Shown here: in pieces, positions 38,060-55,671 of the stretch | Layout: the number at the start of each line of letters is the position of its first letter | How positions within the stretch are numbered: the stretch's first letter is position 1 | Assembly (NCBI RefSeq): GCF_007625075.1 | Contig: NZ_QMIE01000001.1 | Span: forward strand, 310,001-374,000 | Length of the DNA stretch: 64,000 nt | Direction: 5' to 3' | Origin: Oceanidesulfovibrio indonesiensis | Lineage (GTDB): Bacteria; Desulfobacterota; Desulfovibrionia; Desulfovibrionales; Desulfovibrionaceae | The notes under the pieces: generated by a model | The model's database searches: none | Seen by the model: only the letters and a program-made list of their open reading frames with translations | Told to the model about the DNA's origin: nothing | Translations under genes and position numbers: made by a program

Positions 38060-38061
38060 AC

Positions 38062-38697
38062 ATGGCGCCGAAAACCGGCGGAACAACGAAATCGAAACGC
38101 ACGGAAGCCGGCAGCGGGCGAGGCCGGCAGGGCAAGCTGACGCCGGAAGTCATCGAGATTCTGGGCGCAAGCCTGGAGCGCGGCGATTCGCTCGAAGGGG
38201 CGTCCGCAGCGGCCGGCATCAGCCGCAGCACGCTCACAAAGTGGATGCGTCGCGGCGCGCGGGCGCTGGAGGAAGGCGAGTCATGCCCCATCGAACCGGC
38301 CAGCGAAACCGAGCGGCTCGCGCTGGAGCGAGAGGCCCTCTACGCCGAATTGTTCGGCCGGGTGCGTCTGGCGCTGGCCCGGGCCGAGGCCGACAACCTG
38401 CGCGTCATCGAGGATGCCGGCCGCGGCGGGGCGAAAATCACCGAGACCGTCCAGGTGGTGGACAGCGAGGGCAACATCGTCAAGCAGACCACGACCACCA
38501 AGCAGGCTCCGGCCCAGTGGAAAGCCGCAGCATGGAGGCTGGAGCGGCTCTACCCGCACAAGTACGGCGGCAAGATCCGGGACGGCGGATCTTCGGGCGG
38601 AGCGCTCACCGTGGAGATCGTGGCGGACGCGCCGAAGCAGACCGGGCAGGAAGGGGCCGGGAACAATCACGCCGGGAGCGACCCTGATGGCGGATAA
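38062..38697 (+). CDS. phage terminase small subunit
   Basis: 211 residues; GGGAG precedes the ATG, two bases after the previous stop. An N-terminal helix-turn-helix (SLEGASAAAGISRSTLTKWMRRG, residues 44-66) would recognise the packaging site. The rest is helical (ERLALEREALYAELFGRVRLALARAEA) with a C-terminal Gly/Asp tail, as in small terminases that pair with this large subunit. It overlaps terL by 11 bases. WKAAAWRLERLYPHKYG near residue 160 is a common feature of such proteins. Confidence 0.85.
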   Translation: MAPKTGGTTKSKRTEAGSGRGRQGKLTPEVIEILGASLERGDSLEGASAAAGISRSTLTKWMRRGARALEEGESCPIEPASETERLALEREALYAELFGRVRLALARAEADNLRVIEDAGRGGAKITETVQVVDSEGNIVKQTTTTKQAPAQWKAAAWRLERLYPHKYGGKIRDGGSSGGALTVEIVADAPKQTGQEGAGNNHAGSDPDGG

Positions 38698-40033: not shown

Positions 40034-40051
40034 AATGGGGGAATGTTGTTT

Positions 40052-40147
40052 TCGCCTCCGGCGGCCAGGGTGCCAAGTTCCCCTGGACCCCAGAAATGGG
40101 TCCACGGAGCACTGCTCCCTGGTGGAAGTGTGAGGGCAAAGCCCTCA
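40052..40147. repeat. tandem-hairpin element
   Basis: The 151-base gap between terL and portal contains successive hairpins GGACCC/GGGTCC, GGAGCA/TGCTCC and GAGGGC/GCCCTC, preceded by GCCTCCGGCGGCC. Similar in layout to 22711-22800. No gene is present. Confidence 0.5.
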
Positions 40148-40184
40148 TTCTGAACATGCTACAGTCATTGAAGGATGGTGAATC

Positions 40185-41582: not shown

Positions 41583-41639
41583 ACAGTCATTTCTGAAGAA
41601 TGCTTGCGCAAAAGGGCGGCATGCCTGTAGATTCGTGGC

Positions 41640-43013
41640 ATGTCGCCCATTACAACATCCCTCTTCGAGCTGTTCACCATCGGCCCCGGGCCCTCCAGTT
41701 CGCACACCATCGGCCCCATGCGGGCGGGGAACGACTTTCGCCGGGAGATAGAATCACTGCGCGCCGAGGACCTGGGCGGAACGCCCGTCCGGATTCAGGT
41801 TGTGCTGTATGGTTCGCTGGCGGCGACGGGCGAAGGACACGGCACGCCCTGGGCCGCTCTGGCAGGGCTCGCCGGCATGCGCCCGGAGGACTGCCCACCC
41901 GACATATTGGAAACCTGCGCGCGGGATGATCCGGAAAACAGTGTGACGTTCGCCGACGGGACCAGTATCGCCTTCGCGCACAGGGATGTCACCGCGGACA
42001 TGCTGCGGGTGAAGGGTCTGGGCCACCCGAATACGCTGCTGTTCCGGGTGCTGGACAGCGACGGCACTGCGTTGCGCGAGGCCGAGTATCATTCCGTCGG
42101 CGGCGGCTCGATCCGTCGCTCCGGCCGCCCAGTGGACAAGGCGCCTCCGGTGCCGCACGTGTACTACACCATGCGGCAGTTGCGGCGGCTGCTGGTAGAT
42201 GCCGGCCTGCCGCTCGACAGGGTGATCGTGGAGAACGAGTGCGCGTTGACCGGTGCGAGCGAGGCCGAGGTGCTTGCCGGGCTGGACGCCGTGCTGGCCG
42301 CCATGGAAGACGCCGTGCGCCGGGGGCTGGCTGCGGAGGGCGAATTGCCCGGACCGCTGGGGCTGCATCGCAAGGCCAGAGCCATGCACAAACGGTTCAG
42401 GAAGACGCCCGTTTCGGCAGGGCGTCTCATGCTGGCGCTGGATGCGTATGCCCTTGCCGCTGCGGAGGAGAACGCCGCCGGGCATACCGTGGTCACGGCT
42501 CCCACCTGCGGTTCGGCCGGGGTGCTGCCATCCGTGGCGCATGTGATGAAGCATCATCTGAAGCTGGCGCATGATGACATTCGACGCGGGTTGTGCGCGG
42601 CAGCGTTGGTGGGACTTCTGGCGCGGCACAACGCGAGCGTTGCCGGGGCGGAAGTTGGTTGCCAGGGCGAGATCGGCGTGGCGGCGTCCATGGCTGCGGC
42701 CATGCTGGCCATGGGCAGAGGCCTGGGAATGCACGTGGTGGAAAACGCTGCCGAGACGGCGCTGGAGCATCACCTGGGCATGACCTGCGACCCCGTGGCC
42801 GGCTACGTGCAGATTCCCTGCATCGAACGCAACGCAATGGGCGCGGTGAAGGCGTTCAATGCGTATGTGATTGCATCGTCCGAAGTGGAGATGCATCACA
42901 TGGTGGGCCTTGATCAGGCGATCATCGCCATGGCCGAGACGGGCCGGGACATGCATCGCAAGTACAAGGAAACATCGCTGGGCGGTCTTGCGGCGAGCAT
43001 GGTGAACTGCTGA
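41640..43013 (+). CDS. sdaA: L-serine dehydratase, iron-sulfur type
   Basis: 457 residues. Deaminates L-serine to pyruvate with a [4Fe-4S] cluster. The single-chain form is present: N-terminal beta domain (LFTIGPGPSSSHTIGPMRAG) and C-terminal alpha domain (VVTAPTCGSAGVLPSV, AEVGCQGEIGVA, GMTCDPVAGYVQIPCIERNAMGA). Three cluster cysteines lie in the last two motifs. No good ribosome-binding site precedes ATG 41640. It is an ordinary metabolic gene placed between phage portal and capsid blocks. A GC-rich hairpin follows the stop. Confidence 0.97.
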   Translation: MSPITTSLFELFTIGPGPSSSHTIGPMRAGNDFRREIESLRAEDLGGTPVRIQVVLYGSLAATGEGHGTPWAALAGLAGMRPEDCPPDILETCARDDPENSVTFADGTSIAFAHRDVTADMLRVKGLGHPNTLLFRVLDSDGTALREAEYHSVGGGSIRRSGRPVDKAPPVPHVYYTMRQLRRLLVDAGLPLDRVIVENECALTGASEAEVLAGLDAVLAAMEDAVRRGLAAEGELPGPLGLHRKARAMHKRFRKTPVSAGRLMLALDAYALAAAEENAAGHTVVTAPTCGSAGVLPSVAHVMKHHLKLAHDDIRRGLCAAALVGLLARHNASVAGAEVGCQGEIGVAASMAAAMLAMGRGLGMHVVENAAETALEHHLGMTCDPVAGYVQIPCIERNAMGAVKAFNAYVIASSEVEMHHMVGLDQAIIAMAETGRDMHRKYKETSLGGLAASMVNC

Positions 43014-43021
43014 AGCCGAAC

Positions 43022-43060
43022 GCGAGCGGCCGCCTCGATTGCTCGGGGCGGCCGCTTGCG
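43022..43060 (+). terminator. hairpin after sdaA
   Basis: A 16-bp stem (GCGAGCGGCCGCCTCG paired with CGGGGCGGCCGCTTGC, two wobble pairs) eight bases after the sdaA stop. No U tract follows, so termination efficiency is uncertain. Confidence 0.5.
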
Positions 43061-43084
43061 ATATCATAAGTAATTCCGAATACC

Positions 43085-43203
43085 TGCCCCACGCATGAAG
43101 CCAAGCGCAGACAATCCGGCCTTTTCGGAGTCGTACTCCTTTGTAAAGGGCCGGAGCTGTCACGCAGTAGGTATCCGGCAGCTCCGGTCTTCCATGTGGG
43201 GCA
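43085..43203. ncRNA. candidate structured RNA or foldback element
   Basis: This 119-base region folds on either strand into a branched structure. The outer stem is TGCCCCACGCATGAAG with CTTCCATGTGGGGCA; one arm is CCGGCCTTTT/AAAGGGCCGG capped by GGAGT/ACTCC; a second arm is CCGGAGCTG/CAGCTCCGG. The two arms compete for a shared CCGG, which would allow alternative folds. It lies between the convergent sdaA and MucR-like genes. Resembles no riboswitch that I recognise. It could equally be a MITE. Confidence 0.35.
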
Positions 43204-43242
43204 CTGTGCACATCCGGCTGGTGCGACTGATGAAGCGGGACG

Positions 43243-43632
43243 TTACTTCTTGATGCGCTTTTCCCAGAGCTTCATGTCCTTCATCTTCTTGCGGCGCTCA
43301 CGTTGGAGCGCTTTACACACCAGCGGCTGGTTCTTCTTGTAGCCCCATTTCTGGCGGTACTCATCCGGGGTGAGGCCGAACTGCGCCAGAGTTTTCTTGG
43401 TAATGATCTTGTACTGCTTGCCGTTTTCAAGGCAGGTGATCGACTTTTCCTTGATGGCCTTTTTGGGATCGATGGGCGGCTCGGGTTTTTCCGTAGCAGA
43501 ATCGCCTTCGTCGATGCCTTTAATGCCTTCGGCAAGCTTCTTGACCATGGAGGTGATTTCCTCCTCGGTCATATTACGGACACTGGCTTGCGCCTTTACG
43601 ATTTCAAGGGCTTCCTTGATGTAGCTTTCCAT
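43243..43632 (-). CDS. MucR/Ros-family regulator without zinc ligands (copy 1)
   Basis: 129 residues. The C-terminal half follows the Ros/MucR DNA-binding domain: CLENGKQYKII, LAQFGLTPDEYRQKWGYKKNQPLVCK and a basic tail (QRERRKKMKDMKLWEKRIKK). In zinc-binding Ros the ligands are C-x2-C and two histidines; here only the first cysteine is kept (CLEN, KKTL), so the fold must be held without zinc. N-terminal ESYIKEALEIVKAQASVR is helical and probably oligomerises. It has a paralogue 380 bases upstream in the same direction. MucR proteins are H-NS-like silencers of AT-rich DNA in some bacteria. Confidence 0.85.
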   Translation of the reverse strand: MESYIKEALEIVKAQASVRNMTEEEITSMVKKLAEGIKGIDEGDSATEKPEPPIDPKKAIKEKSITCLENGKQYKIITKKTLAQFGLTPDEYRQKWGYKKNQPLVCKALQRERRKKMKDMKLWEKRIKK

Positions 43633-44010
43633 GAAGTGCCTCCGTTTATCTCTACAGGGAACGACGCGCTTGAACTCTTATTGACTATGGAATGAGAAAA
43701 GTCAAGGCGTGTTGCAGGAAATGATAGTCAGACTAAAATGAAATTGCATCCATGCTGCGTCAGGTGTTGCATGTGTTGCATGCAAAGGATCTCGATAAAT
43801 AGTCTAAAAAATATTTAACATGGAAGTAATATTAGAACTATTGCAGGAATAACAGTCATGCTGGTCTGCATGTACGCGTTGCTTTCCGCTAAGCGCATGG
43901 AGTGAAGGCTGCGGCATTGCAACAAAAAAACCGCCGGGTTTTCAGGCCCGGCGGTGCGGATGTCGATATGGGAGAATTCGGGGTGCAGCGCGAACTGTGC
44001 GCGGCTCAGT
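43633..44010. other. AT-rich spacer between the two MucR-like genes
   Basis: 378 bases, clearly lower in GC than the rest of the window, with runs such as AATAAATAGTCTAAAAAATATTTAAC. It holds the promoter region of copy 1 and the terminator of copy 2. AT-rich DNA is the kind of target MucR proteins bind, so autoregulation is plausible. Confidence 0.5.
43924..43955 (-). terminator. terminator of MucR-like copy 2
   Basis: On the minus strand ACCGCCGGG-loop-CCCGGCGGT is followed by a run of T residues (43924-43930). Confidence 0.88.
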
Positions 44011-44412
44011 TTAATTTTTGCCCCGAAGTTCCCAAGGCTTGATCTGCTTGATGCGTTCGCGCCGCTTGCGTTGCAGTGATTTGCATGCAAGGGGCTGATT
44101 CTTGGAGTACCCCCACTTTTCGCGGTACTCGTCCGGCGTCAGTCCGAACTTGGCAAGGTGCTTGCGGGTGAGGATCTTGTACGATTTGCCAGATTCCAGG
44201 CAGATGATTGCATTTTCCTTGATGGCTTTGGACGGCTCCACCGGAGGCTCTTGGGCAGGAGCGGCAGATGCTGCATCCGTGCCGGCCTCGGACAGCATGC
44301 GAAAATCACGGGTCAGGTTGCGCACCATATCCATGATTTCATCTTCGGTCATAATTCGCACAGATGCCTGTGCCTTCACGATTTCAAGGGCTTCCTTGAC
44401 AAAGCTTTCCAT
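44011..44412 (-). CDS. MucR/Ros-family regulator (copy 2)
   Basis: 133 residues, paralogue of the gene at 43243: same N-terminus (MESFVKEALEIVKAQASVR) and C-terminal domain (AIICLESGKSYKILTRKHLAKFGLTPDEYREKWGY, basic tail). It keeps one cysteine and one of the two zinc histidines (RKHL) but has CLES instead of C-x2-C, so zinc binding is doubtful. The middle linker is Ala/Pro-rich and differs most between the copies. It has its own terminator, so the two are separately transcribed duplicates. Confidence 0.87.
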   Translation of the reverse strand: MESFVKEALEIVKAQASVRIMTEDEIMDMVRNLTRDFRMLSEAGTDAASAAPAQEPPVEPSKAIKENAIICLESGKSYKILTRKHLAKFGLTPDEYREKWGYSKNQPLACKSLQRKRRERIKQIKPWELRGKN

Positions 44413-44677
44413 GATTTGCTCCCAAAGTAACTATTGGCTTCATGCGACAGAGGTACAGTATCCGCTCCCTCTACAGCATATGGCCCTGATGTCAAGTCAA
44501 ATACGGCGCCTCCTTCGACATCATCAGAACCGGACGCAACGTTCGTGTTGTATTCGATGCATTGTCTCGGCGCCGAATCTCAAGTAGTGGCGGAAGTTGG
44601 CAAAGCGAGGCATTCTGTTTTTGCGGACTTCCCGATGCGGTTCGTGTTTTCGAAGAGCGGCAGTACAGCTTTGAATA

Positions 44678-44803
44678 TTACTGGGAGCAGAAAATTTTTA
44701 CATTTTCGCGCCCCAGTTATTTATAAGGACGGCCACGCTCCAGGCGGGGCCACGCGGCGAACGCCGCGGGAGCAAGAAGTTTAAAATTTCTTGCTCCCAG
44801 TAA
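44678..44803 (+). mobile_element. 126-bp MITE-like element, copy 1
   Basis: Bounded by 12-bp inverted repeats TTACTGGGAGCA / TGCTCCCAGTAA and flanked on both sides by TA, as left by mariner/IS630-type transposases. Internally it carries a long hairpin (GGGAGCAAGAAG with its complement TTTCTTGCTCCC at 44769-44799). It has no gene. A near-identical copy lies in opposite orientation at 58467-58592. Confidence 0.7.
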
Positions 44804-44928
44804 TAACAAACGGAGCCGCTGCAAAGGCTGTGCAGTGTGGCTCCGACGCGTCGTCGGCACGGACTTTCTCAGAAAAAGAACCGACAGACGAGATACCTTC
44901 TCAGCGGATGCTTCGCAATTGTTTATCC

Positions 44929-45049
44929 GGCAGTCGAAAAAGCCCGGTTGCTGCGTTGCTTCAGAGATTTCGAATCCTCACGTGCTGGAAGTATTCTCCA
45001 GCCCTGGTCTTTTTATGTTTCTTGCGCTCAAATTATTGAACAACCTGCG
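44929..45049. repeat. palindromic CTGTTGAAAAA-type repeat, full copy
   Basis: An imperfect palindrome beginning CGGCAGTCGAAAAAGCCC and ending TTGAACAACCTGC, with GTTGCTGCGTTGC and CTTGCGCTC arms. It is the pattern of a dispersed intergenic repeat common in many Proteobacteria. A shorter relative is at 55222-55299, and decayed ends are at 36406 and 53683. Confidence 0.6.
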
Positions 45050-45215
45050 AGAATGATATTTTCACCGGCCAGTCTTTCTTTGTAAAATGTTTGTCTTCGA
45101 GCACTCCTGCCGTATACAATGTGGTACGCAGTCATTTCGCCGATAAAGCAATCGGGTGTTGCGCCGGAATGTCCAGCCATCATTGCCGATTCTACCTTGC
45201 GGCGTGGAGAACAGC

Positions 45216-45878
45216 ATGGGCGATGCTCGAAGCAGCTCATATCGTCAGGCAGCCCCAGGAAAGAGGGGCTGTGGCCCGTACCAATCCCGGGTCTGGTCCT
45301 ACCTCATCCTTTCCGACAAAGCCCCTCGTCGCCGTTTACCGATCCGGAAACGCCTGGCGCTCATCGCAGCATTTGTCAGCGTGCTCACAATTGTGCTGGC
45401 GACGCCTGCGCCATCCGCGGCACAGGACAGCCGTCGCGTCATCAGGCCCACCATCGGCGAGCCCGTGGTGCGGCAATGGTTCGACTCCATCTCTATGGAG
45501 GGGTTCCGCCGCGTGGCGCTGTTCCACGAGTTCCACCCCATAGACGGCAGCCTGGTGGGGCGCTACGCGGGCACGGGAAAGCGCAACGGGGCCATGGTTT
45601 TCGTTACGTATATGGACGAAGAGCGCAAGGACCCTAAGTACGGCATGTTCCGGACTGCCAAGGAAATGGTTTCCGTTGGCGCCAGAGGATGGATCGAGCG
45701 GCGGGTGCTGGGCGGGCGCGTCTGGTTTGGCGACGACTCGGACAAACCCACGGTGGCCACGGATATGGGACCAAAGGTCCGCGTGGTGCTGATGAGCTAT
45801 GACGGCGTGAGCCTGGAGGAGCTGTTCGCCCTTGCCGACTCCATGGAACTGTCCATCCTGGAGAACGCGCTGAACTGA
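45216..45878 (+). CDS. exported protein of unknown function
   Basis: 220 residues from ATG 45216, which has GGAGAA upstream. A long basic N-region ends in RKRLALIAAFVSVLTIVLATPAPSAAQ (about residues 43-69), a signal peptide with an AQ cleavage site. A shorter start is not evident. The mature domain of about 150 residues starts with RRVIRPTIGEPVV, has GSLVGRYAGTGKRNGAMVFV and ends in an amphipathic helix (SLEELFALADSMELSILENALN). No family recognised. It is convergent with the exported-protein/ABC operon on the other strand. Confidence 0.65.
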   Translation: MGDARSSSYRQAAPGKRGCGPYQSRVWSYLILSDKAPRRRLPIRKRLALIAAFVSVLTIVLATPAPSAAQDSRRVIRPTIGEPVVRQWFDSISMEGFRRVALFHEFHPIDGSLVGRYAGTGKRNGAMVFVTYMDEERKDPKYGMFRTAKEMVSVGARGWIERRVLGGRVWFGDDSDKPTVATDMGPKVRVVLMSYDGVSLEELFALADSMELSILENALN

Positions 45879-45903
45879 TGCGCGTCGACGTCCCGCATCC
45901 GTG

Positions 45904-46122
45904 TCAGGCGGATTCTGATTCGTCGATCTCTTCTACATCCAGGGCCCGGAACTGCGGATAGAATTTCAGCTTGTCCGGGGTGCCGTGGACTTCGTTGGCT
46001 ACCTTGAGTGCAGCCACGCGTTTTCCCACGGCTTCAATCTCCACGGTATCGCGGAGTGTGCGGGATTCCTGCTTGGTCTCATCGACGAGCGTTGTAACGA
46101 ATGTGACCTGGTAGCGGGGCAT
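45904..46122 (-). CDS. small protein of unknown function
   Basis: 72 residues; GAGGGATG lies before the ATG. Predicted as one compact alpha-beta domain: YQVTFVTTLVDETKQ strand pair, RTLRDTVEIEAVGKRVAALKVANEVHG helix, then KLKFYPQFRALDVEEIDE. The acidic C-terminus and lack of a signal suggest a cytoplasmic protein. It is last in the series of minus-strand genes starting at 51421, with a 50-base gap from the preceding gene. Confidence 0.6.
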   Translation of the reverse strand: MPRYQVTFVTTLVDETKQESRTLRDTVEIEAVGKRVAALKVANEVHGTPDKLKFYPQFRALDVEEIDESESA

Positions 46123-46172
46123 GGTCGTTCATCCCTCAGGATATCGTGGTGTTAATGGTGGCTTACAAGCTG

Positions 46173-46628
46173 TCAGTTGCACTGTGTGCTGCACAGCCGG
46201 AAGCTGGCCTGGGCGCGGTTGGCGCATTCCTGCGGCGCGGGGGCGAGATCGCATGTGCGCAACTTGCTCTGCAACTGGTTGCCGCAACGCTGGGAGCAGC
46301 TGGAGCGCAGGTTGTTGCGGACCGAGGCGCGCACGGACTCGCCGATGGCCGGAGCCTGCGGTGTTTGCGGAACGGACGCCCCTCTGCTGGACGATGAGGA
46401 GTCGCTCTCTTCCGAAGTTATCAGGTCATCAGCGCTCTGCTCAGGCACGCCCAACACGTCGCGGATCAATTGCTCATTGGTCTCGGCCTGTTCCCGGACA
46501 ATCTGTTGTCCGGTCTTCTGGGCATGGCCCGCTACAGGCACATGCAACACGAGGATGCCGCCCAGGATGCCGACGCAAAGCAGCTGGCGCATGCCGGGCA
46601 GGAATTTCGAATAGTTGTGAATATTCAT
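46173..46628 (-). CDS. secreted cysteine-rich protein
   Basis: 151 residues. N-terminal signal peptide (LLCVGILGGILVLHVPVAGHAQ, about residues 16-37), a helical section (QQIVREQAETNEQLIRDVLGV), a Ser/Pro-rich linker and a C-terminal segment with six cysteines in the last 45 residues (CSQRC, RTCDL, QECANR, RLCSTQC). The spacing suggests disulfides in the periplasm or a small metal site. It is 12 bases after the large ABC transporter gene, hence in its operon. Unknown family. Confidence 0.65.
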   Translation of the reverse strand: MNIHNYSKFLPGMRQLLCVGILGGILVLHVPVAGHAQKTGQQIVREQAETNEQLIRDVLGVPEQSADDLITSEESDSSSSSRGASVPQTPQAPAIGESVRASVRNNLRSSCSQRCGNQLQSKLRTCDLAPAPQECANRAQASFRLCSTQCN

Positions 46629-46640
46629 TCCCTTTATGTA

Positions 46641-49600
46641 TCACTCCAGTTCCCGGCTGTCCAGATGTAGCACCTGCCGAGCAGCACGCTTCAAACGTCT
46701 GCGGGCCATGATCCGACCGCCGGACGTGGTGGGTTTGCTGCGGAGCGCCCCCAGGGTGAAGATGTTGAGGCCGAAGCCCATCAGCGCCAGCACTACGCCG
46801 TTGAGCATGGGGGTGGACACGGATGACTCCAGCAAAGGCAAGGGCTTTTCGCGCACGAACAGTGGCATGTCCAGGCTGTCGTCCGCTTTGATCCGGCCCT
46901 CGGCAATCAACTGTTCGCGCCGCCGTTCGGCAAGAATGACGGCGTCGTGCACGTTCTTGTTGCCGTAGGCGTGCTTGCGTTCCTGGCGCAGTCGCTCAAG
47001 ATCGCCTTCCAGCTTCGCAATTTCGAAAGAGAGGGGCGTTGAGCTGTCGGCGGATTCTTCGCTGCGCAGGATTTTGCGCTGGCGCAGCTCCTGAAGCAAG
47101 GCGGCGTGGGCTCCGTCGTAGCTGTTCCCTGCTTCCTGCATCACGATGAGGCCTTCGAAGGCCCAGCGCGAGGGCATGAACTGGCATATCTCCGGTATGG
47201 GGTTCTGGGAGAAGAGCCGGAGCTGCTTGTTCATTTCCTCATACTCGATGAGCGCGCCGCCCAGCACGATCTGCGGGATGAGCAACAGCGGCACGGCGTT
47301 GAGCGCAGCGCGCAGGGAGAGTCCCGGCAACGAGGAAATAGCGAGCCCCAGCGAAACGCCGGCGAAGGACACAAGCCCCAGGTAGAGGAAATGCTGCAGG
47401 TACAGCTCGCGCAACTCCAGCAAGAGAAATGCCGGCAACATAAAAAGGGCGTTCTGCACCAGGGCGAAGGCCATGAGCACAAGGAGCTTGCCCGAGAGGT
47501 ACACATAGTTTGGCACGTCCACCATGCGCTCGCGCAGAAACACCGGCGCGTCGGACACGATCTCGTGCACCGAACCGGAAAGAGCCAGGAACATGACGGC
47601 GATGACCGCGATGAACAGGAACGTGCGGAAGAGGTCGTTGGTGTACAGGGAGTAGTCGCCCGCCGGGCTGTAGCGCAGCACGAAGCCGAGCCCCGCGCCC
47701 AGCAGCGGCGCTTCCAGAAAGGTGACCAGAAGGCTGGAGCGATCGCGCAGTTTGTTCATGCCGTTGCGCGAAGCCAAGGACGCAACCTGGGAGACACGCT
47801 CCATGGCCGTGGCCCGGCGCCTGGGCGGAAGCTTCTCCTCGGCCGGCATGCGCAGCGAGCTGATCCACGCCGAGACCACTTTCTGCCGGTAACGTGTCTT
47901 CCAGTATCCGGGCGAGTGTTTGCGTTCGCCCAGTTGCGAGCCGTCGATGTCCCGAAGCGTCTCCTCAAGTCTGTCCAGGAGAAGCTCCGGCATCACGGTC
48001 TTGCATTCAGGACACTCCACGGCCGGATCCTCTCCGGCCTCCTCATGGTGCGCGCCGTGGCTGCCGAAGTAATCGAGCGCCTCGAACGTGGACCCGTAGA
48101 AAGCCAGGCGGCCGCCCTTGTCGATGAGCGCTACCTTGTCGAAGGCCTTGAACAGGCGCGATCCCGGCTGGTGGAGCACGGATACCACGATGCGGCCGGA
48201 CAGGGCGATGTCGGTGAGGATCTCCAGGATGTGCTCGGAATCCTTGGACGACAGGCCGGAAGTGGGTTCGTCGAGAAAATAGATGGCCGGGTTGCCCAGA
48301 AGCTCCAGGCCGATGTTCGCGCGTTTGCGTTCCCCGCCGCTGAGCACGGAGTCCTCTGGCGGCCCCACGCGGGTGTGCGCTTTGTCCTGCATGCGAATCG
48401 AGGCGAGCACGGATTCCACGCGCTGGCGGACTTCCCGCCTGTCGATCTCCGGAAAGCGCAGCCGGGCGTGGTAGGCGAGGTTTTCGTACACGGTGAGGTT
48501 GGGGAACAGCAGATCCTCCTGCGGCACGAAACCGATGAGGTCGCGCAGCCGGTCGAACTCCATGTGCACGTCGATGCCGTCCAGGGTGCTGGTGCCGGAG
48601 TCCGGCGGGAGGATGCCTGCCAGCACCTTGAGCAGGGTGGACTTGCCGCTGCCGGAGGGCCCCATGATGCAGACCATTTCGCCGTACTCGGCTTCCAGGG
48701 AAATCTCGTCCAGGGCGCCGCCCCCGCGGGACAATATGCCGCTGCGCTGTCCGTGTGTGAGTCGTTCGGCAGTGAGCTTGCGGAAACTGAAGCGTTCCGA
48801 TTCGAAACGCTGTCGTTCGAGGTCGATTTCGATGAAGGTGTCCCGCAGATAGAGCACGTCGCCGTGTTCCACGCGGTCTCCGGCGGTCATGCTGCGGCCG
48901 TTGAGGTAGGCCTGATACGGGCAGCCGCCCGGTTCGAAATAAAGCGCCCCGTGCCGGCGCAACAAATGCGCGGTCCAGCGCTTGGGCAGATTGTCCGGCA
49001 GGTGCACGGCGCTTTTCGCGTCGTTGGCGATGGTCAGTGCGATGCGGCCGGTGCCGAGGGAGCCGGCCCGACGAGAGGCAAGCAGGTGGAATATTTCGCG
49101 GGGGTCGATTTTGAAGCCGTTGACGAAGATCACGTCGTCGAACCCCACTTCGCGGTCTTCCATCTGATCCGGGTGGGCGCGCAGTTGTTCGCCGTTCACC
49201 ATGACCAGGGCCTTGATGTCCAGCTGGGAGATGGTGAGGCGCGTGCCCGTCATGCGGAACCGGGCTATGTCCTCGTCCCTGAGCTGGCGCGACAAGGCGA
49301 GGGAAAACCCCTGCCGGCGGATTGCCAGCGAGGTTTCCGGGGAATGCGCCTTTACGCTGAAATAGGCGGCGAGGTCGCTGGACCGCAACACCGTATCGCC
49401 GATGATGATGGTGGAGTGCGGGGTGATGCGGGTGGTGAAGGTTCGCGTGAGCGTCCGTCCGTCCACGAGCACGCGTATGCCAGTGGTGTCTGCGTGGCGC
49501 GCGGCCATGAGCATGAGGTTGTGCGTCTTGTGGGCCACGAGATCCAGGCCGGGATAGGGCAGCAGGATGTCGGCCCTGTCCGCGTTATCGGAGATGACCA

Positions 49601-50078
49601 GCGAGAGCAGGCTCGATTTCTCGATGATCCACTCAGGGGATTCGCCCACGCCGGCGGCGTGCTCCAGAAAGGCCACGTCCTCAGGCGTGATGCTCACGAA
49701 GGAGGCCACGGTGCGCGCCGTGCGCAAGCCGAGGTCGCCCATGCCGGAAGCGGCCACGAACTCGTACGCCGTGAGCAGGCAGGATATGCGCTCCGGATAG
49801 TTCAGCCGGTTGCGCAGGGTGGAGGCGAAGCGTTCGATATCCGCGGGGCTGGCCGCCAGATCTTCGAACGTGGCGAGGAAATATGCTGTGATGTCGTGCG
49901 GATAGAGAGATTCGTAATACGCCCAGATAAAGGCTCGCGCCCGGGCGCCGGACTCCTCGGATTCCGAGGCCCCAACCTGCGCGATAAGCGCAAGCAACTC
50001 CAGCGTCCGCATGGCCAGGCTTTGGGACAGGACATTGCGGATGTCGGGGTCGAGTTCGGGCGCGCCGGAAAAATGCAT
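46641..50078 (-). CDS. TerB-FHA-ABCG transporter, single 1145-residue chain
   Basis: A very large fusion. Residues about 1-150 are a helical, TerB-like domain. Two FHA-like (phosphothreonine-recognition) regions follow (about 150-270 and 330-430; PYQAYLNGRSMTAGDRVEHGDVLYL is typical). Next is an ABCG-type ATPase: Walker A GPSGSGKST, Q-loop GFVPQEDLLFPNLTVYENL, signature LSGGERKRANIGLELL, Walker B IYFLDEPTSGLS. A linker carries a CPEC zinc-like motif. The C-terminal membrane domain (about 800-1125) has six helices of the ABC-2 type with a long periplasmic loop before the last. Half-transporters of this class usually export lipids or polymers. The FHA modules suggest control by protein phosphorylation. 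It is in an operon with at least three exported proteins. Confidence 0.85.
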   Translation of the reverse strand: MHFSGAPELDPDIRNVLSQSLAMRTLELLALIAQVGASESEESGARARAFIWAYYESLYPHDITAYFLATFEDLAASPADIERFASTLRNRLNYPERISCLLTAYEFVAASGMGDLGLRTARTVASFVSITPEDVAFLEHAAGVGESPEWIIEKSSLLSLVISDNADRADILLPYPGLDLVAHKTHNLMLMAARHADTTGIRVLVDGRTLTRTFTTRITPHSTIIIGDTVLRSSDLAAYFSVKAHSPETSLAIRRQGFSLALSRQLRDEDIARFRMTGTRLTISQLDIKALVMVNGEQLRAHPDQMEDREVGFDDVIFVNGFKIDPREIFHLLASRRAGSLGTGRIALTIANDAKSAVHLPDNLPKRWTAHLLRRHGALYFEPGGCPYQAYLNGRSMTAGDRVEHGDVLYLRDTFIEIDLERQRFESERFSFRKLTAERLTHGQRSGILSRGGGALDEISLEAEYGEMVCIMGPSGSGKSTLLKVLAGILPPDSGTSTLDGIDVHMEFDRLRDLIGFVPQEDLLFPNLTVYENLAYHARLRFPEIDRREVRQRVESVLASIRMQDKAHTRVGPPEDSVLSGGERKRANIGLELLGNPAIYFLDEPTSGLSSKDSEHILEILTDIALSGRIVVSVLHQPGSRLFKAFDKVALIDKGGRLAFYGSTFEALDYFGSHGAHHEEAGEDPAVECPECKTVMPELLLDRLEETLRDIDGSQLGERKHSPGYWKTRYRQKVVSAWISSLRMPAEEKLPPRRRATAMERVSQVASLASRNGMNKLRDRSSLLVTFLEAPLLGAGLGFVLRYSPAGDYSLYTNDLFRTFLFIAVIAVMFLALSGSVHEIVSDAPVFLRERMVDVPNYVYLSGKLLVLMAFALVQNALFMLPAFLLLELRELYLQHFLYLGLVSFAGVSLGLAISSLPGLSLRAALNAVPLLLIPQIVLGGALIEYEEMNKQLRLFSQNPIPEICQFMPSRWAFEGLIVMQEAGNSYDGAHAALLQELRQRKILRSEESADSSTPLSFEIAKLEGDLERLRQERKHAYGNKNVHDAVILAERRREQLIAEGRIKADDSLDMPLFVREKPLPLLESSVSTPMLNGVVLALMGFGLNIFTLGALRSKPTTSGGRIMARRRLKRAARQVLHLDSRELE

Positions 50079-50111
50079 GAGGCGGTTGTTCCGGATAATA
50101 GAAGAAAGCGA

Positions 50112-50570
50112 CTAGCGGTATCCGGTCAGGAGGAACCAGCCCGCGCCCTCGCTGCCGGCGTCGGCGATGGTGACCTGGACGTGGTAGGAACCGCTCCAGA
50201 ACACCTGGAACATGGCTTCGGCCTGCCGGAGCTGCCGGTTGTCCGCAGTCACGAGCTGCCAGTTCTCGTCGAAGATGCGTATTTCGACGCCCTTCAGGTC
50301 TGCGTCGCCGGCGGCGTAGAACACATAGTCGATGCCGGCGGAAAGCTGCGTGGTGAAGTAATAGGACTCGCCTGTCTTGAGCGCCCCCATCTGAAGCTCG
50401 CGGATGGCGTAGCCGTCTTCGGCGTAGTCGGCCATGGCGGCGGTGGAGTGCCGCACCAGTTCGCGTCGGCGCGCGTCGTCTATCTGCTGGGCAAAAGAAG
50501 GCTGCGCGGCCACAAGTAAAGCCGCCACAAGGAGCCAGGTGCTCGCCTTGCAGTGCGGCCGTGCCATCAT
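50112..50570 (-). CDS. secreted small protein of the ABCG operon
   Basis: 152 residues starting MMARPHCKAS; the signal peptide ends SFAQ at about residue 28. The mature part contains GALKTGESYYFTTQLSAGIDYVFYAAGDADLKGVEIRIFDE and a C-terminal FWSGSYHVQVTIADAGSEGAGWFLLTGYR. This pattern of beta strands ending in Y-x-V-x-V-x-I is that of a pre-peptidase C-terminal (PPC)-like beta-sandwich. ATG 50570 overlaps the preceding gene's stop (ATGA); the ABC gene begins 33 bases later. Confidence 0.7.
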   Translation of the reverse strand: MMARPHCKASTWLLVAALLVAAQPSFAQQIDDARRRELVRHSTAAMADYAEDGYAIRELQMGALKTGESYYFTTQLSAGIDYVFYAAGDADLKGVEIRIFDENWQLVTADNRQLRQAEAMFQVFWSGSYHVQVTIADAGSEGAGWFLLTGYR

Positions 50571-51421
50571 CCGGCTTCTATCTCCTCGACCAGGGTTGCG
50601 GAGAGCTCGCGCAGCCTGTCGATGTTCTCGGGTGGTACGGGCGTGCCGAAGCCCACGTCGATGAGCTTGCGTATGGCTTCGAGCTCGGCAAAGAGTCGCT
50701 GCACGGCGGGGTGCTCGCGCATTTCGGGCCGCATCTCCCGGATGCGCCTGATGAAATGGTCCACAAGCGCCGGCTGATGCAGCAGCGATGAGGCGCGCGC
50801 ATCGTAGGATTCCGCGAGCGTGGCCGAGGTGGCGCGCAGACCCTCCAGCCAGCCGCCGGCGGTCACCAGCAGGGCGAGATCGTCGTCGCCCAGCCGCTCC
50901 ATCTCGGCGATCACCTTGCGGCGCAGGCTGTCCAGCTCCATGCGCAGGGCGTTCCATTCCTCGCGGCTCGCCATGGCTTCGATGCGCCGTCCTTCCGCCA
51001 GCAGGGTTTCTCCCACCATAAGCTCCTCGGCCAGGGTGATGATCACGGAGATCATTTCCCCGAGCATACCCTTATCCCGGGCCTGGATCGCCAGGAAGCC
51101 GTCCGCGGCGCGCACGCCCAGGTTCAGCGCGCGCAATACATCGTCCGGATAATCATAGCGCGTATCGAAGCTCGCCGCATCCCGCCAGTCGCGCCCGCCC
51201 ATCCTGTCCAGGGCGGCGAAAATCTCTCCGGGCGACGGCATCAGCACGCGCTCCTCGAAAAGCGCCTTTTCGGAATCCGGGATCACGGAGGAATTTGCGG
51301 AAAGCTGGAGTGCGGGAGCGGCTATGGCCGCGGCCAAGGTGAGGCCGAGAAGTGGACGAACCACCATGCGGCGCAAAGGTCGGCCGCGCATGCGCAAGAG
51401 TATGGATGGAATGGGGGGCAT
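50567..51421 (-). CDS. exported helical protein of the ABCG operon
   Basis: 284 residues. An N-terminal signal or anchor (PLLGLTLAAAIAAPALQLSA, about residues 23-42) is followed by an all-helical domain of about 230 residues with charged amphipathic helices (LLAEGRRIEAMASREEWNALRMELDSLRRKVIAEMERLG; VDHFIRRIREMRPEMREHPAVQRLFAELEAIRKL). No cysteines or known motifs. It is the first gene in the operon and overlaps the next by 4 bases. Likely a periplasmic partner of the transporter. Confidence 0.7.
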   Translation of the reverse strand: MPPIPSILLRMRGRPLRRMVVRPLLGLTLAAAIAAPALQLSANSSVIPDSEKALFEERVLMPSPGEIFAALDRMGGRDWRDAASFDTRYDYPDDVLRALNLGVRAADGFLAIQARDKGMLGEMISVIITLAEELMVGETLLAEGRRIEAMASREEWNALRMELDSLRRKVIAEMERLGDDDLALLVTAGGWLEGLRATSATLAESYDARASSLLHQPALVDHFIRRIREMRPEMREHPAVQRLFAELEAIRKLIDVGFGTPVPPENIDRLRELSATLVEEIEAG

Positions 51422-51709
51422 GTCGTGCTGGTTCCGGTGTTCGATCTACATGGTCTGACAATGGAGATTGATACTTCCTAAGCCATGCCGACGCGAAGCG
51501 CAATCCCGCGGCGGTGTTTTGATGACCATTCATGGGAGCCGCCGTCACGTTATGCGGAGGCCGGTCACACCAGCCGAGGACTCAGGCGCGTTCGGGGGAA
51601 CGGCTTCCGTATGGAGAGGTGGAGCAGGCCGCGCGTAATCTCGGTGCTGGATCGCAACATAATGGACGTCGGATCGAACGACAGTCCGAAACAGCAACGA
51701 GGTGTGCAC

Positions 51710-52420
51710 ATGGACGAGAAGAGAATGGATCCCGTGGCCGCCATGGCCGGGCCCTCGAAAGACAACGTTGGGGAGGCAGCGCGTGGGGATTCCTCAGAAA
51801 ACGGGACGCCGGAGGAGCATGCGCAGGAAGCCGCCCTCAAGGCGCTTCAGGACCGGGTGAATGCGCTGGTCGCCCAGAACGAGGAACTGCGCGAACGCAA
51901 CCGCCTACTCATCGCCAGGGTGGAACAGCCCGCGGCCAGGGAGAAGCCGGCCGATGAGCCCGCGAAAAACGATGCCGCCGTGGCTCGGCTGCAGGAGCAG
52001 CTCGCCAGACGCGACGAGCAGATCCGAACCCTGCTGGTGCGCAACGCCGTGGCATCCAGCCGGTTTATCAACGAGAAAACCCTGCTGCCTCCGGGCGTGG
52101 CGCTCGACGTCTTCTCCCGCATCTTCACCGTAGAGGAGATTGACGGCGAGCTCATGCCGGTGGCGCATCTGCCTTCGGGCGAGCCCATCATGTCCCGCGT
52201 CAATCCCGGCAAGCCGGCCGGTCCTGAAGAGGCCATCGAGATCTACGTGCTGAACCACTTCCCGGAGCGTGACGCCATCCTCAAGGGCGGCAGCGGCGGT
52301 TCCGGCGCGGGCGGCAATCAGGAGTACCGCACCACGCCCCGGGCCGTTCCCCGCAACGACGCCCGCGCTTTCAGCCGGCATCTCGAAGCCATCGCCGCCG
52401 GCAAGGTGGATGTGATTTAG
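51710..52420 (+). CDS. phage scaffold-like head protein
   Basis: 236 residues from ATG 51710 with GAGGTG upstream. The N-terminal half is acidic and coiled-coil (ALKALQDRVNALVAQNEELRERNRLLIARVEQ; ARLQEQLARRDEQIRTLL, residues 40-115). The C-terminal half is compact (FSRIFTVEEIDGELMPVAHLPSGEPIMSRVNPG) and ends in a Gly/Ser linker and a basic region. Coiled-coil proteins of this size just ahead of the coat gene serve as scaffolds. It starts the right phage block. Confidence 0.65.
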   Translation: MDEKRMDPVAAMAGPSKDNVGEAARGDSSENGTPEEHAQEAALKALQDRVNALVAQNEELRERNRLLIARVEQPAAREKPADEPAKNDAAVARLQEQLARRDEQIRTLLVRNAVASSRFINEKTLLPPGVALDVFSRIFTVEEIDGELMPVAHLPSGEPIMSRVNPGKPAGPEEAIEIYVLNHFPERDAILKGGSGGSGAGGNQEYRTTPRAVPRNDARAFSRHLEAIAAGKVDVI

Positions 52421-52520
52421 AGCAGTTTGAGCTCGAAAAGGCACTGGAAACAGCCGGCCCCGCATTCGTACACCCCGATAATCCCATTACCCAATTGTAT
52501 AGAGATGGAGGATTCCTCAC

Positions 52521-53675
52521 ATGCCGAACGATCTTTCCGCCGTAACCCCCAAGCTTCTCGCCCAGGGCCTGCTCGCCCTGCGCGAAACGTGCGTCATGCC
52601 GCGGCTGGTGAACTCCGACTACGGCGACACCGCCGCCTCCCGCGGGGCGGTCATCGACGTTCCCGTACCCTCGGCCATCACCAGCACGCCGGTGAATCCG
52701 GCGAACACCGCGCCGGACCCGACCGGCCTCACCCCCAGCTCCGTGCCCATCGCCATGGACCAGTGGCGCGAGGCTCCGTTCACCCTCACGGACAAGGACC
52801 TCATGAACGTGTTCGACGGCGTGATCCCCATGCAGGCGTCGGAAGCCATCAAGGCCCTGGCCAACTACGTGGACGCCTATCTGCTGGGGCTTTACACCGG
52901 CATTCCGTATCTGGTGGGCACGCCCGGCACAGCGCCTTTCGGCGCCAGCGTTGCCGAGGCCACTGCGGCGCGCAAGGTGCTCAACAACAATCTGGCCCCG
53001 CTCCAGGACCGCCGCATGGTCATCGACTCCGACGCCGAGGCCAACGCCCTGGGCCTGCGCGCCTTCCAGGACGCCTCGTTCTCCGGCGACGCTTCGGCAA
53101 TCAACGAAGGCCAGATCAACCGCAAGCTCGGGTTCGACTGGTTTCTGGACCAGAATGTGCCCACCCACGTGGCGGGCACGGCCGGCGGCACCGAGGCCAG
53201 CCCCACCACAATCGCCTCCGCCACGGTGGAGCCCGCAGGCGAGACCAGCCTGGCCGTCACCGTGGGCGCGGACAATGATCTCAATCTCAAGCAGGGCGAC
53301 ATCATCACCATCGCCGGGGACGCGAATTCCTACGCCGTGGCCCAGGATGTATCCATTCCGGCCGGAGACACCGGCATGGTGCAGATCGCGGGCGGCCTCA
53401 AGCAGGCCACTGCCGGCGACGAGGCCATTACGGTCAAGGGCGACCATGTGGTCAACCTCGCCTTCCACCGCGACGCCATCGCCTTTGCCAACCGTCCCCT
53501 GGCCGACAACACCGAGGGATTGGGCAACCTGGTGCAGACCGCCACGGATGCTGTTTCCGGTCTGTCTCTGCGCCTGGAAATCTCGCGGGAGTACAAGCGC
53601 ACCCGCTACTCATTCGACATCCTCTTCGGCGCCGCGCTGGTGCGGCCGGAGCTGGCCTGCCGCGTGGCCGGCTAG
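52521..53675 (+). CDS. P22-like major capsid protein
   Basis: 384 residues. AGATGGAGG precedes the ATG. It follows the P22 coat pattern: N-terminal MPNDLSAVTPKLLAQGLLALRETCVMPRLV, FTLTDKDLMNVFDGVIPMQ, INRKLGFDWFLDQN, an inserted domain (about residues 230-310, VTVGADNDLNLKQGDIITIAGDANSYAV) and FHRDAIAFANRPL near the end. These are HK97-fold subunits that form the icosahedral head. It shares P22-type capsids with the DUF4055 portal in other phages. Confidence 0.88.
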   Translation: MPNDLSAVTPKLLAQGLLALRETCVMPRLVNSDYGDTAASRGAVIDVPVPSAITSTPVNPANTAPDPTGLTPSSVPIAMDQWREAPFTLTDKDLMNVFDGVIPMQASEAIKALANYVDAYLLGLYTGIPYLVGTPGTAPFGASVAEATAARKVLNNNLAPLQDRRMVIDSDAEANALGLRAFQDASFSGDASAINEGQINRKLGFDWFLDQNVPTHVAGTAGGTEASPTTIASATVEPAGETSLAVTVGADNDLNLKQGDIITIAGDANSYAVAQDVSIPAGDTGMVQIAGGLKQATAGDEAITVKGDHVVNLAFHRDAIAFANRPLADNTEGLGNLVQTATDAVSGLSLRLEISREYKRTRYSFDILFGAALVRPELACRVAG

Positions 53676-53682
53676 CAGACGA

Positions 53683-53696
53683 GGCTGTTGAAAAAA
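53683..53696 (+). repeat. partial CTGTTGAAAAA repeat end
   Basis: GGCTGTTGAAAAAA occurs 8 bases after the coat gene stop and matches the end of the palindromic repeat at 55299 in inverted orientation. The rest of the repeat is not clear here. Confidence 0.4.
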
Positions 53697-53802
53697 ACAC
53701 GCTGGAGAGTGTGATTGCATACCTCCGGTTGAAGTTTCGAGCAGGCAAGGGGCGGCGCATTCGTCGCCCCTGTTCAGAACATCGGCAACCACAGGGAAGG
53801 AC

Positions 53803-54069
53803 ATGCAGGAGCGACCCGAAACCATCACCGTGCGCACGCCGGAAGGACGCCGAGCAGTGCTGAACGCAGACGATTTCGACCCCCGCGCGCACGAGCCGTG
53901 GGACGATGATTCCGAAGCCCCGGATCCGGAAACCGAGACGCTGGTGGGCATGAGCAAGGCCGAGTTGAAGGCCCTGGCGAGGCGCAAGCGCATTCCCGGC
54001 CACGGTTCGTGGAAAAGCAGGAGTGCGCTGCGCTCCGGCATCGCAAACCATCTACGGAAGGAAGGATAG
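53803..54069 (+). CDS. small phage protein with SAP/Rho-N-like end
   Basis: 88 residues. Acidic N-terminal half (ITVRTPEGRRAVLNADDFDPRAHEPWDDDSEAPDPETE). The C-terminal part LVGMSKAELKALARRKRIPGHGSWKSRSALRSGIANHL is like the SAP/HeH/Rho-N helix-turn-helix fold that binds nucleic acids in short phage proteins. It lies between coat and connector genes, ending two bases before the next ATG. Confidence 0.6.
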   Translation: MQERPETITVRTPEGRRAVLNADDFDPRAHEPWDDDSEAPDPETETLVGMSKAELKALARRKRIPGHGSWKSRSALRSGIANHLRKEG

Positions 54070-54071
54070 CC

Positions 54072-54524
54072 ATGCAGTTCTGCACCGACAGCGACCTGAC
54101 GGCCGTGGCTGCGGATGTGCGCCACCTGGTGCCGGCGGAGCTGGACGACTGGTCCATACAGCGAAAGCTGGCGGAAGACGCTGTGCTGCGCGACCTCTCC
54201 CGCGTGTGGTACGCGCCGGCGGCCCGCGCGCGGGGCATCGACCCCACAGTCTCGCCACTTGTCCCCGATCGTTTGGCTGCTTCGGAGATCAAGCCCCTGG
54301 CCGTGCTCAAGTGCCTGGAGGTTGTCTACGGCTATCTTGCCAAACCGGGCATGCGCGAGGCCGACGGCTTCGAGCGCAATGCCGAACGCTACCGCCGCCG
54401 CTACAGTGAGGAGCTGGACAATGTCGCCACGGCTGGCCTCGCTTACGACTGGAACAACTCCGGCGCTCTGGAGTCCTGGGAATCGTCCACACCCAGAACA
54501 CCGCGCCGGCTGACGCGTGCGTGA
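54072..54524 (+). CDS. phage head-tail connector-like protein
   Basis: 150 residues; GAAGGA before the ATG. All-helical: FCTDSDLTAVAADVRHLVP, then LAEDAVLRDLSRVWYAP, IKPLAVLKCLEVVYGYLAKPG and FERNAERYRRRYSEELDNVA. The pattern fits head-completion (gp6/gp15-like) connectors, which typically sit just after the coat gene. The family call is moderate because sequence similarity cannot be measured here. Confidence 0.6.
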   Translation: MQFCTDSDLTAVAADVRHLVPAELDDWSIQRKLAEDAVLRDLSRVWYAPAARARGIDPTVSPLVPDRLAASEIKPLAVLKCLEVVYGYLAKPGMREADGFERNAERYRRRYSEELDNVATAGLAYDWNNSGALESWESSTPRTPRRLTRA

Positions 54525-54533
54525 GGTGCGCTG

Positions 54534-55220
54534 ATGGCTGCTTCTCCATCATTATACAGGCGTCGTCGGTTTCGGGATGCGCCGTTCACGTTCGTACAAG
54601 GCTGGGTGGAGCGGTTCCCCTTCCTTGGCGGAGCGAAGGTTCCGCTGCCAGAGTGGCGAAGGGAGATGATGCTCGCCAACCGCGCCATGCTGGACGATGC
54701 GGACGAGTACCTGATCATCACCGAAGACGCGTCCCTGGCGTACGATCTCTGCGCCACGCGCGTCGACCCCTGGCCGCTGTGGCAAAACGTCTGCGCCCAT
54801 CTCGGGCTATCCGTGCGCTGGCATGTTCGCAATGGGGCGGACGTCGGGGCGTGCCTGGATCTCTGCCGCGTTTATCTGGCGCTGCAGACTCCGCGGCTGG
54901 TCTGGCTGGATTCGGACGCAAGGCTGCGCGCACGGCCGCAAATCGACATGCGTGAGCACAGGCCGCACCTCTATCGGCGCGGGCCGCTCGTGGCGTTTTA
55001 TTCCGGCATCCAGTGCGAGGCCGTCTCGTCGTTCTGGCGGGCGAGCCTCCGGGCCCTTGCAGGCGGGGTGGAGCAGAGCAAGTGGTTGCCCACGGCGCTA
55101 CGTCTCAACGATCTGAATGCCGGCGGGCCATGGCCGGCGTTTTCCGAGGAGTACGTTGTCCATCATTTCCGCGGAACAGGAGTGCGACGCTGGCGAATGC
55201 GGACACGGGCTGGCCGTTGA
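54534..55220 (+). CDS. glycosyltransferase-like protein in the phage block
   Basis: 228 residues; GAGGTGCG precedes the ATG. The central part LLDDADEYLIITEDASLAYDLCATR ... GADVGACLDLCRVYLALQTPRLVWLDSDARLRARPQ (residues about 50-135) has the DxD-containing layout of GT32-type sugar transferases: a helix of recruited residues (DLCRVYLAL) then a strand ending in the DSD metal motif. The remainder (FYSGIQCEAVSSFW, then FSEEYVVHHF) also fits an acceptor region. Function in a phage could be modification of host surface or virion glycans. Alternative: a head protein of unknown fold. Confidence 0.4.
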   Translation: MAASPSLYRRRRFRDAPFTFVQGWVERFPFLGGAKVPLPEWRREMMLANRAMLDDADEYLIITEDASLAYDLCATRVDPWPLWQNVCAHLGLSVRWHVRNGADVGACLDLCRVYLALQTPRLVWLDSDARLRARPQIDMREHRPHLYRRGPLVAFYSGIQCEAVSSFWRASLRALAGGVEQSKWLPTALRLNDLNAGGPWPAFSEEYVVHHFRGTGVRRWRMRTRAGR

Positions 55221-55221
55221 A

Positions 55222-55299
55222 TAAATCGTTTTCGCGGGTTGTACGAAAATCTTTGAGGCAACACAGCAATCGGGCGTTTTTCAACAGTCTGCCATCGAG
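55222..55299 (-). repeat. CTGTTGAAAAA-type palindromic repeat, short copy
   Basis: On the minus strand it starts GGCAGACTGTTGAAAAACGCCCG, contains TTGCTGTGTTGCCTCAAAGA and ends at GATTTATTCAAC, giving GTTGAA/TTCAAC ends. It lies in the 97-base gap after the glycosyltransferase-like gene and is the best match to the repeat at 44929-45049. Confidence 0.65.
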
Positions 55300-55317
55300 T
55301 CGCAAAGGAGCATGCGC

Positions 55318-55671
55318 ATGCAGGACATGATTGAGGAATACCGCGGCGATCTCTGGGAATGGGGAATCACCGTGAGCGGATACGATGAGGAGACCGGCGA
55401 GGAGACGCCGGTGGATCTGAGCGGCGCCACGCTGCTCGCCACGCTCAAGCGCCGACTGACCGACGCGGACGAAGACGCCGTGCTCGCGGCCGAGGTGGTG
55501 GAGCATGAAGACGCGGCCGGCGGAGTGAGTGCGGTGCGATTCGAGACGGAACGGACCTCCGCATTGGAGCCGGGCGAGTACGCGGCGGACATGCGTCTGC
55601 TGCCCGGACCGTATGTGCTGTGGCGCGGCGTGGTGATCGTGAAGGAGCCGGTGACCGGGAGGACGAGCTGA
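55318..55671 (+). CDS. phage structural protein of unknown function
   Basis: 117 residues from ATG 55318, placed 7 bases after AAGGAG; a second ATG at 55312 is too close to it. The sequence is rich in beta strands with GITVSGYDEETGEETPVDLSGATLLATLKRRL, ADEDAVLAAEVVEHEDAAGGVSAVRFETERTSALEPGEYAADMRLL. This is an Ig-like, BppU/tail-associated profile. It overlaps the tail fibre gene start by one base. Confidence 0.55.
   Translation: MQDMIEEYRGDLWEWGITVSGYDEETGEETPVDLSGATLLATLKRRLTDADEDAVLAAEVVEHEDAAGGVSAVRFETERTSALEPGEYAADMRLLPGPYVLWRGVVIVKEPVTGRTS

Follow-up and report, generated by a model that had tools for sequence, protein, structure and literature searches.

Partner switches are regulators of sigma factors and, in the case of Pseudomonas, of a diguanylate cyclase. 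The described systems closest to the one considered here are SiaABCD of Pseudomonas aeruginosa, the ABCG exporters, and Rv1747 of Mycobacterium tuberculosis, an ABC transporter that carries two FHA domains and has the kinase PknF as its operon partner (PMC3908365). Here, we analyze a 64,000-nucleotide stretch of the Oceanidesulfovibrio indonesiensis genome (contig NZ_QMIE01000001.1, positions 310,001 to 374,000; hereinafter the window), where a compact operon encodes an ABCG-type protein with a long N-terminal region (P1) and two exported partners (P2 and P3). We regard it as an even call that P1-P2-P3 make up an envelope exporter gated by a STAS/SiaC-type phosphoprotein through the TerB/FHA-like docking region of P1. 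More tentatively, we propose a multiphylum exporter class in which a partner switch acts directly on an ABC transporter, P2 and P3 represent new extracytoplasmic families, and the regulator module has been exchanged while the core was kept.

The operon comprises five tightly packed minus-strand open reading frames (ORFs), whose coordinates bear out the original prediction made from the DNA letters. They are transcribed in the order P2, P3, P1, P4, P5, with a 4-base overlap between P2 and P3 and subsequent gaps of 33 (P3-P1), 12 (P1-P4), and 50 (P4-P5) bases.

50567..51421, minus strand: P2 (P0002), 284 amino acids (aa), exported, all-helical
50112..50570, minus strand: P3 (P0003), 152 aa, exported, small, putative beta-sandwich
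46641..50078, minus strand: P1 (P0001), 1145 aa, TerB-like domain, beta modules, ABC ATPase, and membrane part
46173..46628, minus strand: P4 (P0004), 151 aa, signal-peptide-like start followed by six cysteines
45904..46122, minus strand: P5 (P0005), 72 aa, small, without a signal-peptide-like start

By its domain signatures, P1 is an ABCG-type half-transporter, predicted to export and to work as a dimer. As originally predicted, an ABC ATPase (PF00005, 115 bits; Walker A at residue 473) precedes an ABC-2 membrane domain (PF01061, 60 bits) in one 1145-residue chain; the best NCBIfam match was TIGR00955, with 250 bits under a cut-off of 736. Among the 60 PDB sequences listed in profile/sequence matching, ABCG8 and ABCG1 chains spanned both domains. 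The AlphaFold model of P1 was built with five sequences and has a mean predicted local distance difference test score (pLDDT) of 64.3, much of the membrane part being of low confidence. Its 50 listed Foldseek matches comprised 47 named ABCG, Cdr1, and two others, 6ffc and 5nj3, which we take to be ABCG2. Walker A is present in all 47 P1 homologues. The signature LS[GS]GERKR occurred in 10/10 rows of the first alignment and in 0/37 Bacteroidota rows, counting the literal string only. Hydropathy revealed six hydrophobic segments in the membrane part (residues 782 to 946 and 1089 to 1113), of which the fifth and sixth are separated by approximately 140 residues, and an extra hydrophobic stretch within the ATPase (617 to 635). 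The CPEC motif noted previously was located at 689 to 692; 7 of 10 homologues retain CPxC, which is missing in the three from other lineages. P1 matched 72 places in its own genome, of which the other 71 corresponded to the ATPase region only (query residues within 433 to 694).

P1 and P2 are conserved as a unit across phyla and so, less firmly, is P3. The N-terminal region of P1 was found in 7 of 59 genomes, its own included (7/35 of the same family and 0/24 of other families of the order). Since 16 family genomes, 15 of them new, also lacked a P1 profile match in a phylum sample, P1 is patchy within the family. A scan of a genome collection returned nine loci. Four hold P1 relatives, namely, L019 (Delongbacteria), L020 (Ignavibacteriales), L021 (Halanaerobiales), and L018, which is the same contig as L031 of family member G022; the other five match the ATPase mainly or only. 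Across three other lineages and the family of the window, P2 occurs in all 10 distinct P1-bearing genomes searched (11 entries, G022 and G452 being one assembly) and adjoins P1 in 9. A credible P3 was likewise found in 9, the tenth (G454) having a match of E = 0.003 on another contig. In the Delongbacteria genome, P2 and P3 form a pair on another contig (L078). In the Halanaerobiales record (L021), P1-P2-P3 is followed, at 4947-7348, by a CHASE2 protein and a 316-aa protein that no Pfam family matches. P2 was further detected in 90 of 148 genomes of one Bacteroidota order (E≤1e-6), in 7 of 395 genomes of a phylum-wide Bacteroidota sample (E≤1e-10), at least three of which belong to the order, and in 1 of 299 genomes of the phylum of the Halanaerobiales record, namely, that record's own genome; all E-values from these small profiles are rough. 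The expected joint conservation of the five genes therefore holds in part, as P1, P2, and P3 recur together across phyla but P4 and P5 were seen elsewhere in the sister species only (10 neighborhood loci; no genome-wide search was made). Among the exported proteins predicted to stay beside the transporter, P2 does so in 9 of 10 genomes and P3 less firmly, and the six-cysteine P4, among the 10 loci, in the sister species only.

Neither P2 nor P3 has a Pfam or NCBIfam name among the window and Bacteroidota proteins scanned. P2 is marked by the motifs PSPxExFxAL, ALNLGxR, and GGWLEGL, and its model is all-helical (predicted template modeling score 0.70, mean pLDDT 68.9, three sequences; residues 1 to 62 unreliable), with no PDB fold match at E≤0.001. 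P3 is probably a small beta protein; its profile gave no useful match to PDB sequences. In our reading, many Bacteroidota P2 proteins start like lipoproteins and the window P2 starts like a Sec signal peptide.

The link to partner switching came from relatives of the core. A more distant P2 match (L080, genome G601) lies in a six-gene cluster encoding a PP2C phosphatase with Cache-HAMP-GAF-PAS architecture, a DUF6272/SiaB protein, SiaC (Pfam score 135.5, cut-off 24.5), P1 with TerB, P2, and, where P3 would be expected, a small protein. Its P2 was matched with an hhalign probability of 95.6%. The order concerned lies in the phylum of the genome behind the Ignavibacteriales record, and on this ground, following the GTDB grouping, we call it Bacteroidota. 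The arrangement was surveyed in 41 of the 90 P2-positive genomes, at the best P2 hit of each; they were drawn from the first 47 of the list with six skipped (G850, G791, G781, G799, G837, and G808); ORFs were chosen by a simple script, with unrefined starts. On the strand of P2, these 41 loci encode P1 (37), P3 (36), SiaC (32), SiaB (31), and PP2C (30), with all six genes in 27. Every one of the 27 complete loci has the order siaA-siaB-siaC-P1-P2-P3, with extra gene copies in 7. Four of the 37 P1 loci reach a contig end before SiaC could show, and SiaC is present in 32 of the other 33. The search profiles for P1, P2, P3, PP2C, and SiaB include Bacteroidota members, so their locus counts are no independent test of homology with the genes of the window; the SiaC profile is one protein entered twice. 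At L126, SiaB matched the NCBIfam family SiaB_fam_kinase with 183 bits (cut-off 85) and SiaC scored 86 against the equivalog, below its 150. Thr68 (L080 SiaC numbering) is a threonine in 31/31 SiaC proteins of at least 110 aa, a 61-aa fragment (L136) being omitted. Thr68 is also the number of the SiaC phosphosite in Pseudomonas (PMC7647112), a likeness by number and not by alignment. DUF1987/SiaC proteins have been suggested to commonly modulate adjacent proteins (PMC8457831).

A single motif test, applied alike to both sets, found no GGDEF ORF at any of the 41 exporter loci, versus 3 of the 10 SiaC loci that lie apart from the exporter. Those three belong to G014, G015, and G022, all three members of the window's family that have SiaC. 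The SiaABCD-like sets L081, L082, and L088 of window-family members combine SiaC, SiaB, and a GGDEF ORF, with PP2C in L081 and L088, and lie on other contigs or approximately 0.5 Mb from the exporter. In the Bacteroidota clusters, P1 would fill the slot of the Pseudomonas diguanylate cyclase SiaD. A different module adjoins the core in two members of the window's own family (G013 and G022), where the gene order is PP2C-STAS-P2-P3-P1 and the PP2C has a Cache domain; the two STAS proteins are 44% identical and both carry an ASMG motif. Two kinds of partner-switch module beside one core in two phyla are most simply explained if the switch has P1 as its output.

Several observations weigh against this reading. 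The PP2C-STAS pair adjoins the core in only 2 of 7 family members, and it is solely on our own reading that the ASMG motif is presumed to be the site of the phospho-serine in SpoIIAA-type proteins. Profiles found no PP2C, SiaB, SiaC, or close STAS gene in the window, and no SiaC in its genome (G000). The Bacteroidota P3 aligned to the window P3 with an hhalign probability of just 1.4%, and the two are tied only by place, size, and a multiple alignment with similar spacing. One locus, L137, has P1-P2-P3 and room for SiaC yet lacks it, and four others (L138, L153, L158, and L159) have P2 without P1 or SiaC. In G730 and G738, P1 lies near only two of four P2 copies (L075 and L077), neither switch genes nor P3 were seen at the P2 loci, and the seven SiaC genes are at other places and have no GGDEF ORF beside them. 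Above all, adjacency of genes is no proof of interaction.

In an unlikely, though not negligible, alternative, the switch genes are merely co-transcribed and act on other targets, and P1 responds to P2/P3 or to its substrate only. It fits the lack of adjacent switch genes, by profiles over the stretches covered, in the window genome, the sister species, and three more family members (G014, G015, and G023), as well as in G730 and G738. The same idea accounts poorly for two kinds of switch module adjoining one core in two phyla, for the fixed order in the 27 complete loci, and for the lack of a SiaD-type GGDEF gene at the 41 loci. The window genome has seven STAS matches, none tied to the exporter. 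Around two STAS places covering three of these matches (L182, with a pair, and L183), no PP2C was found by profile. At L182 (5809-10139, contig C6 of G000), the two STAS genes flank a small ORF, which by eye looks like an RsbW-type kinase, and adjoin a gene for an 841-aa ABC-type protein.

The N-terminal region of P1 is the candidate docking site for a gating phosphoprotein. Its model consists of eight helices (residues 11 to 142) followed by beta modules at 158 to 232, 248 to 324, and 336 to 429, mostly with pLDDT values of 65 to 88. The helical part, at about 11 to 142, corresponds to the TerB-like domain of the original prediction. Pfam and NCBIfam called no TerB in the window P1 itself, but homologues relate the domain indirectly to PF05099. 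Specifically, a profile of 10 P1 homologues matched 11 other proteins in a 395-genome phylum sample, at positions 15 to 154 only, and all four of these that were scanned are TerB-DnaJ proteins with PF05099 over the cut-off. Furthermore, TerB exceeded its cut-off in three of four Bacteroidota P1 proteins scanned (L080, 25.8; L086, 27.6; L087, 28.6), the fourth (L126) scoring 23.6 under a cut-off of 24.4, and the L080 P1 aligned to the ten-homologue profile with an hhalign probability of 96.6%. This support for TerB also raises the idea of a tellurite or metal stress exporter, with TerB as the mark of a Ter-type stress response. In the Delongbacteria locus (L019, 5794-7047), P1 is directly followed by an M48 metallopeptidase whose C-terminal TerB-like region remains below the cut-off (21.7 bits). 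However, the four scanned TerB matches being TerB-DnaJ proteins, and no other Ter-type gene appearing among the neighbor proteins scanned, a tellurite function is unlikely, and we hold this explanation to be very improbable.

The beta modules had been predicted as two FHA-like regions that imply control by Ser/Thr phosphorylation. The model does show beta modules, but three rather than two, with weak FHA support and a third module that is only weakly FHA-like; in our own reading, the first two are FHA-like. A PDB profile search with the P1 homologue profile gave eight sub-threshold matches, the best being a beta-hexosaminidase (E = 0.3). The other seven (E = 0.67 to 1.9), distributed among Ki-67, OdhI, GarA, Mb1858, and an adenylate cyclase-like protein, are presumably FHA proteins. 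P1 has no Pfam FHA match, and hhalign of its profile against the one Pfam-FHA protein of the window genome (L094) gave a nonsignificant probability of 0.5%. These weak PDB matches, together with the placement of FHA-like modules ahead of an ABCG-type ATPase, are what speaks for an Rv1747-like mode of action, in which P1 would recognize phosphothreonine peptides through its FHA domains and the exporter would answer to a Hanks-type Ser/Thr kinase whose gene lies elsewhere. Against this, the motif GR...SxxH was matched by regular expression in only 3 of 47 P1 sequences (two near relatives at one place and one elsewhere), matches that we read as chance, whereas L094 carries it in its FHA domain (other frames of L094 also match, by chance). 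The residues invariant in all ten P1 rows are instead D362, W368, C386, and N393. Since the motif is so rare in P1 and not at a conserved place, canonical phosphopeptide binding is unlikely on sequence grounds. A regular expression also found no kinase-motif ORF in the window, nor did two Pfam scans, covering 9 and 10 ORFs of the window (no search with a Pkinase profile was made), in agreement with the original remark that no kinase is adjacent. FHA-phosphopeptide control is made unlikely by the missing motif, and we consider the Rv1747-like mode improbable. Control by Ser/Thr phosphorylation is retained as a probable link, through the PP2C/SiaB/SiaC and PP2C/STAS genes of the relatives, but the canonical FHA route is not. 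Gating would then depend on a SiaC/STAS-type phosphoprotein rather than on FHA-phosphopeptide binding. As to the type VI or lantibiotic exporters invoked originally, general scans gave no pointer to either, no search having been aimed at them.

Under gating by a STAS- or SiaC-type phosphoprotein, the P1 half-transporter would presumably form a homodimer and transport its substrate across the inner membrane; the ABCG fold suggests a hydrophobic or envelope-type molecule. The cytoplasmic TerB and FHA-like domains would serve as a docking platform for the phosphoprotein, whose state would be set by the membrane PP2C phosphatase with its Cache sensor and by an opposing kinase; binding of one phospho-state would switch the P1 ATPase. 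On the outer side, the enlarged region that separates membrane segments five and six may contact P2 and P3, which may help substrate release or handover. In the window's species, control would come from proteins encoded elsewhere or have been lost.

The operon is embedded among phage-like genes.

37918-41582: terminase small and large subunits and portal
51485-53675: scaffold and major capsid
55620-57233: tail-like gene

Between the split head genes lie genes of host type, namely, a serine dehydratase gene, genes for MucR-type regulators, an ORF of unknown kind, and the exporter operon. An ORF at 45156-45878 on the plus strand adjoins the operon; it has no Pfam or PHROG match, and a collinear DNA match places its counterpart in the sister species at L027, 4892-5545. 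Scanning the window with Rfam gave 0 matches. Gene-transfer agents of the Dd1 type are known from Desulfovibrio, and the split head-gene module has the look of a phage or gene-transfer-agent cluster that has been domesticated; a scan of viral contigs with the capsid returned three loci at 27 to 28% identity. Window positions 39860-56112 are collinear with the sister species, in blocks of 73 to 83% DNA identity, and the capsid gene is found there too. With terminase and portal genes on one side, scaffold and capsid genes on the other, and this arrangement common to both species, the exporter could be taken for cargo of the phage or gene-transfer-agent cluster. Elsewhere, though, the neighbors with a Pfam match at L028, L030, and L032 belong to nonphage families (those at L029 have no Pfam match), and the core occurs in other phyla. 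Searched by tblastn against 50,697 phage and 72,556 plasmid records, P2 had no match at E≤1e-5, which makes a cargo role unlikely; we give it hardly any probability.

Among the matches listed in a PMC literature search, no title or abstract start described the exporter/SiaABC cluster, its combination of parts, or the P2 and P3 families, which agrees with the original remark that the combination is not a recognized named system. ABCG pumps, TerB, and partner switches are known kinds; what may be new is the way they are combined, along with the fixed gene cluster and the two families of exported proteins. If the proposed gating is true, an ABC pump under direct control would add an output to those of partner switches and would provide a role for TerB and degenerate FHA-like domains. 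As P2 and P3 lack a family name and P2 is present in 90 of 148 genomes of the Bacteroidota order, a first functional test would annotate many genomes.

TerB-DnaJ proteins share the TerB-related helical domain of P1, but P1 lacks DnaJ and has the TerB region fused to a transporter. ABCG5/G8, ABCG2, and ABCG25 show the same domain order and ATPase motifs and are its best structural matches; unlike them, P1 has a long N-terminal regulatory region and a spacing of approximately 140 residues from hydrophobic segment five to segment six. Rv1747/PknF likewise joins an ATPase, a membrane domain, and FHA-type modules in one chain and is linked to Ser/Thr phosphorylation. P1 differs from it in its TerB domain, its degenerate FHA-like modules, and its conserved exported partners, and also in that the window has no kinase motif and relatives carry partner-switch genes beside the core. 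Finally, the Bacteroidota order shares with SiaABCD of P. aeruginosa a SiaA-type phosphatase, a SiaB-family kinase, and a SiaC-family phosphoprotein, whereas the position held in Pseudomonas by the diguanylate cyclase SiaD is occupied by the exporter with P2-P3.

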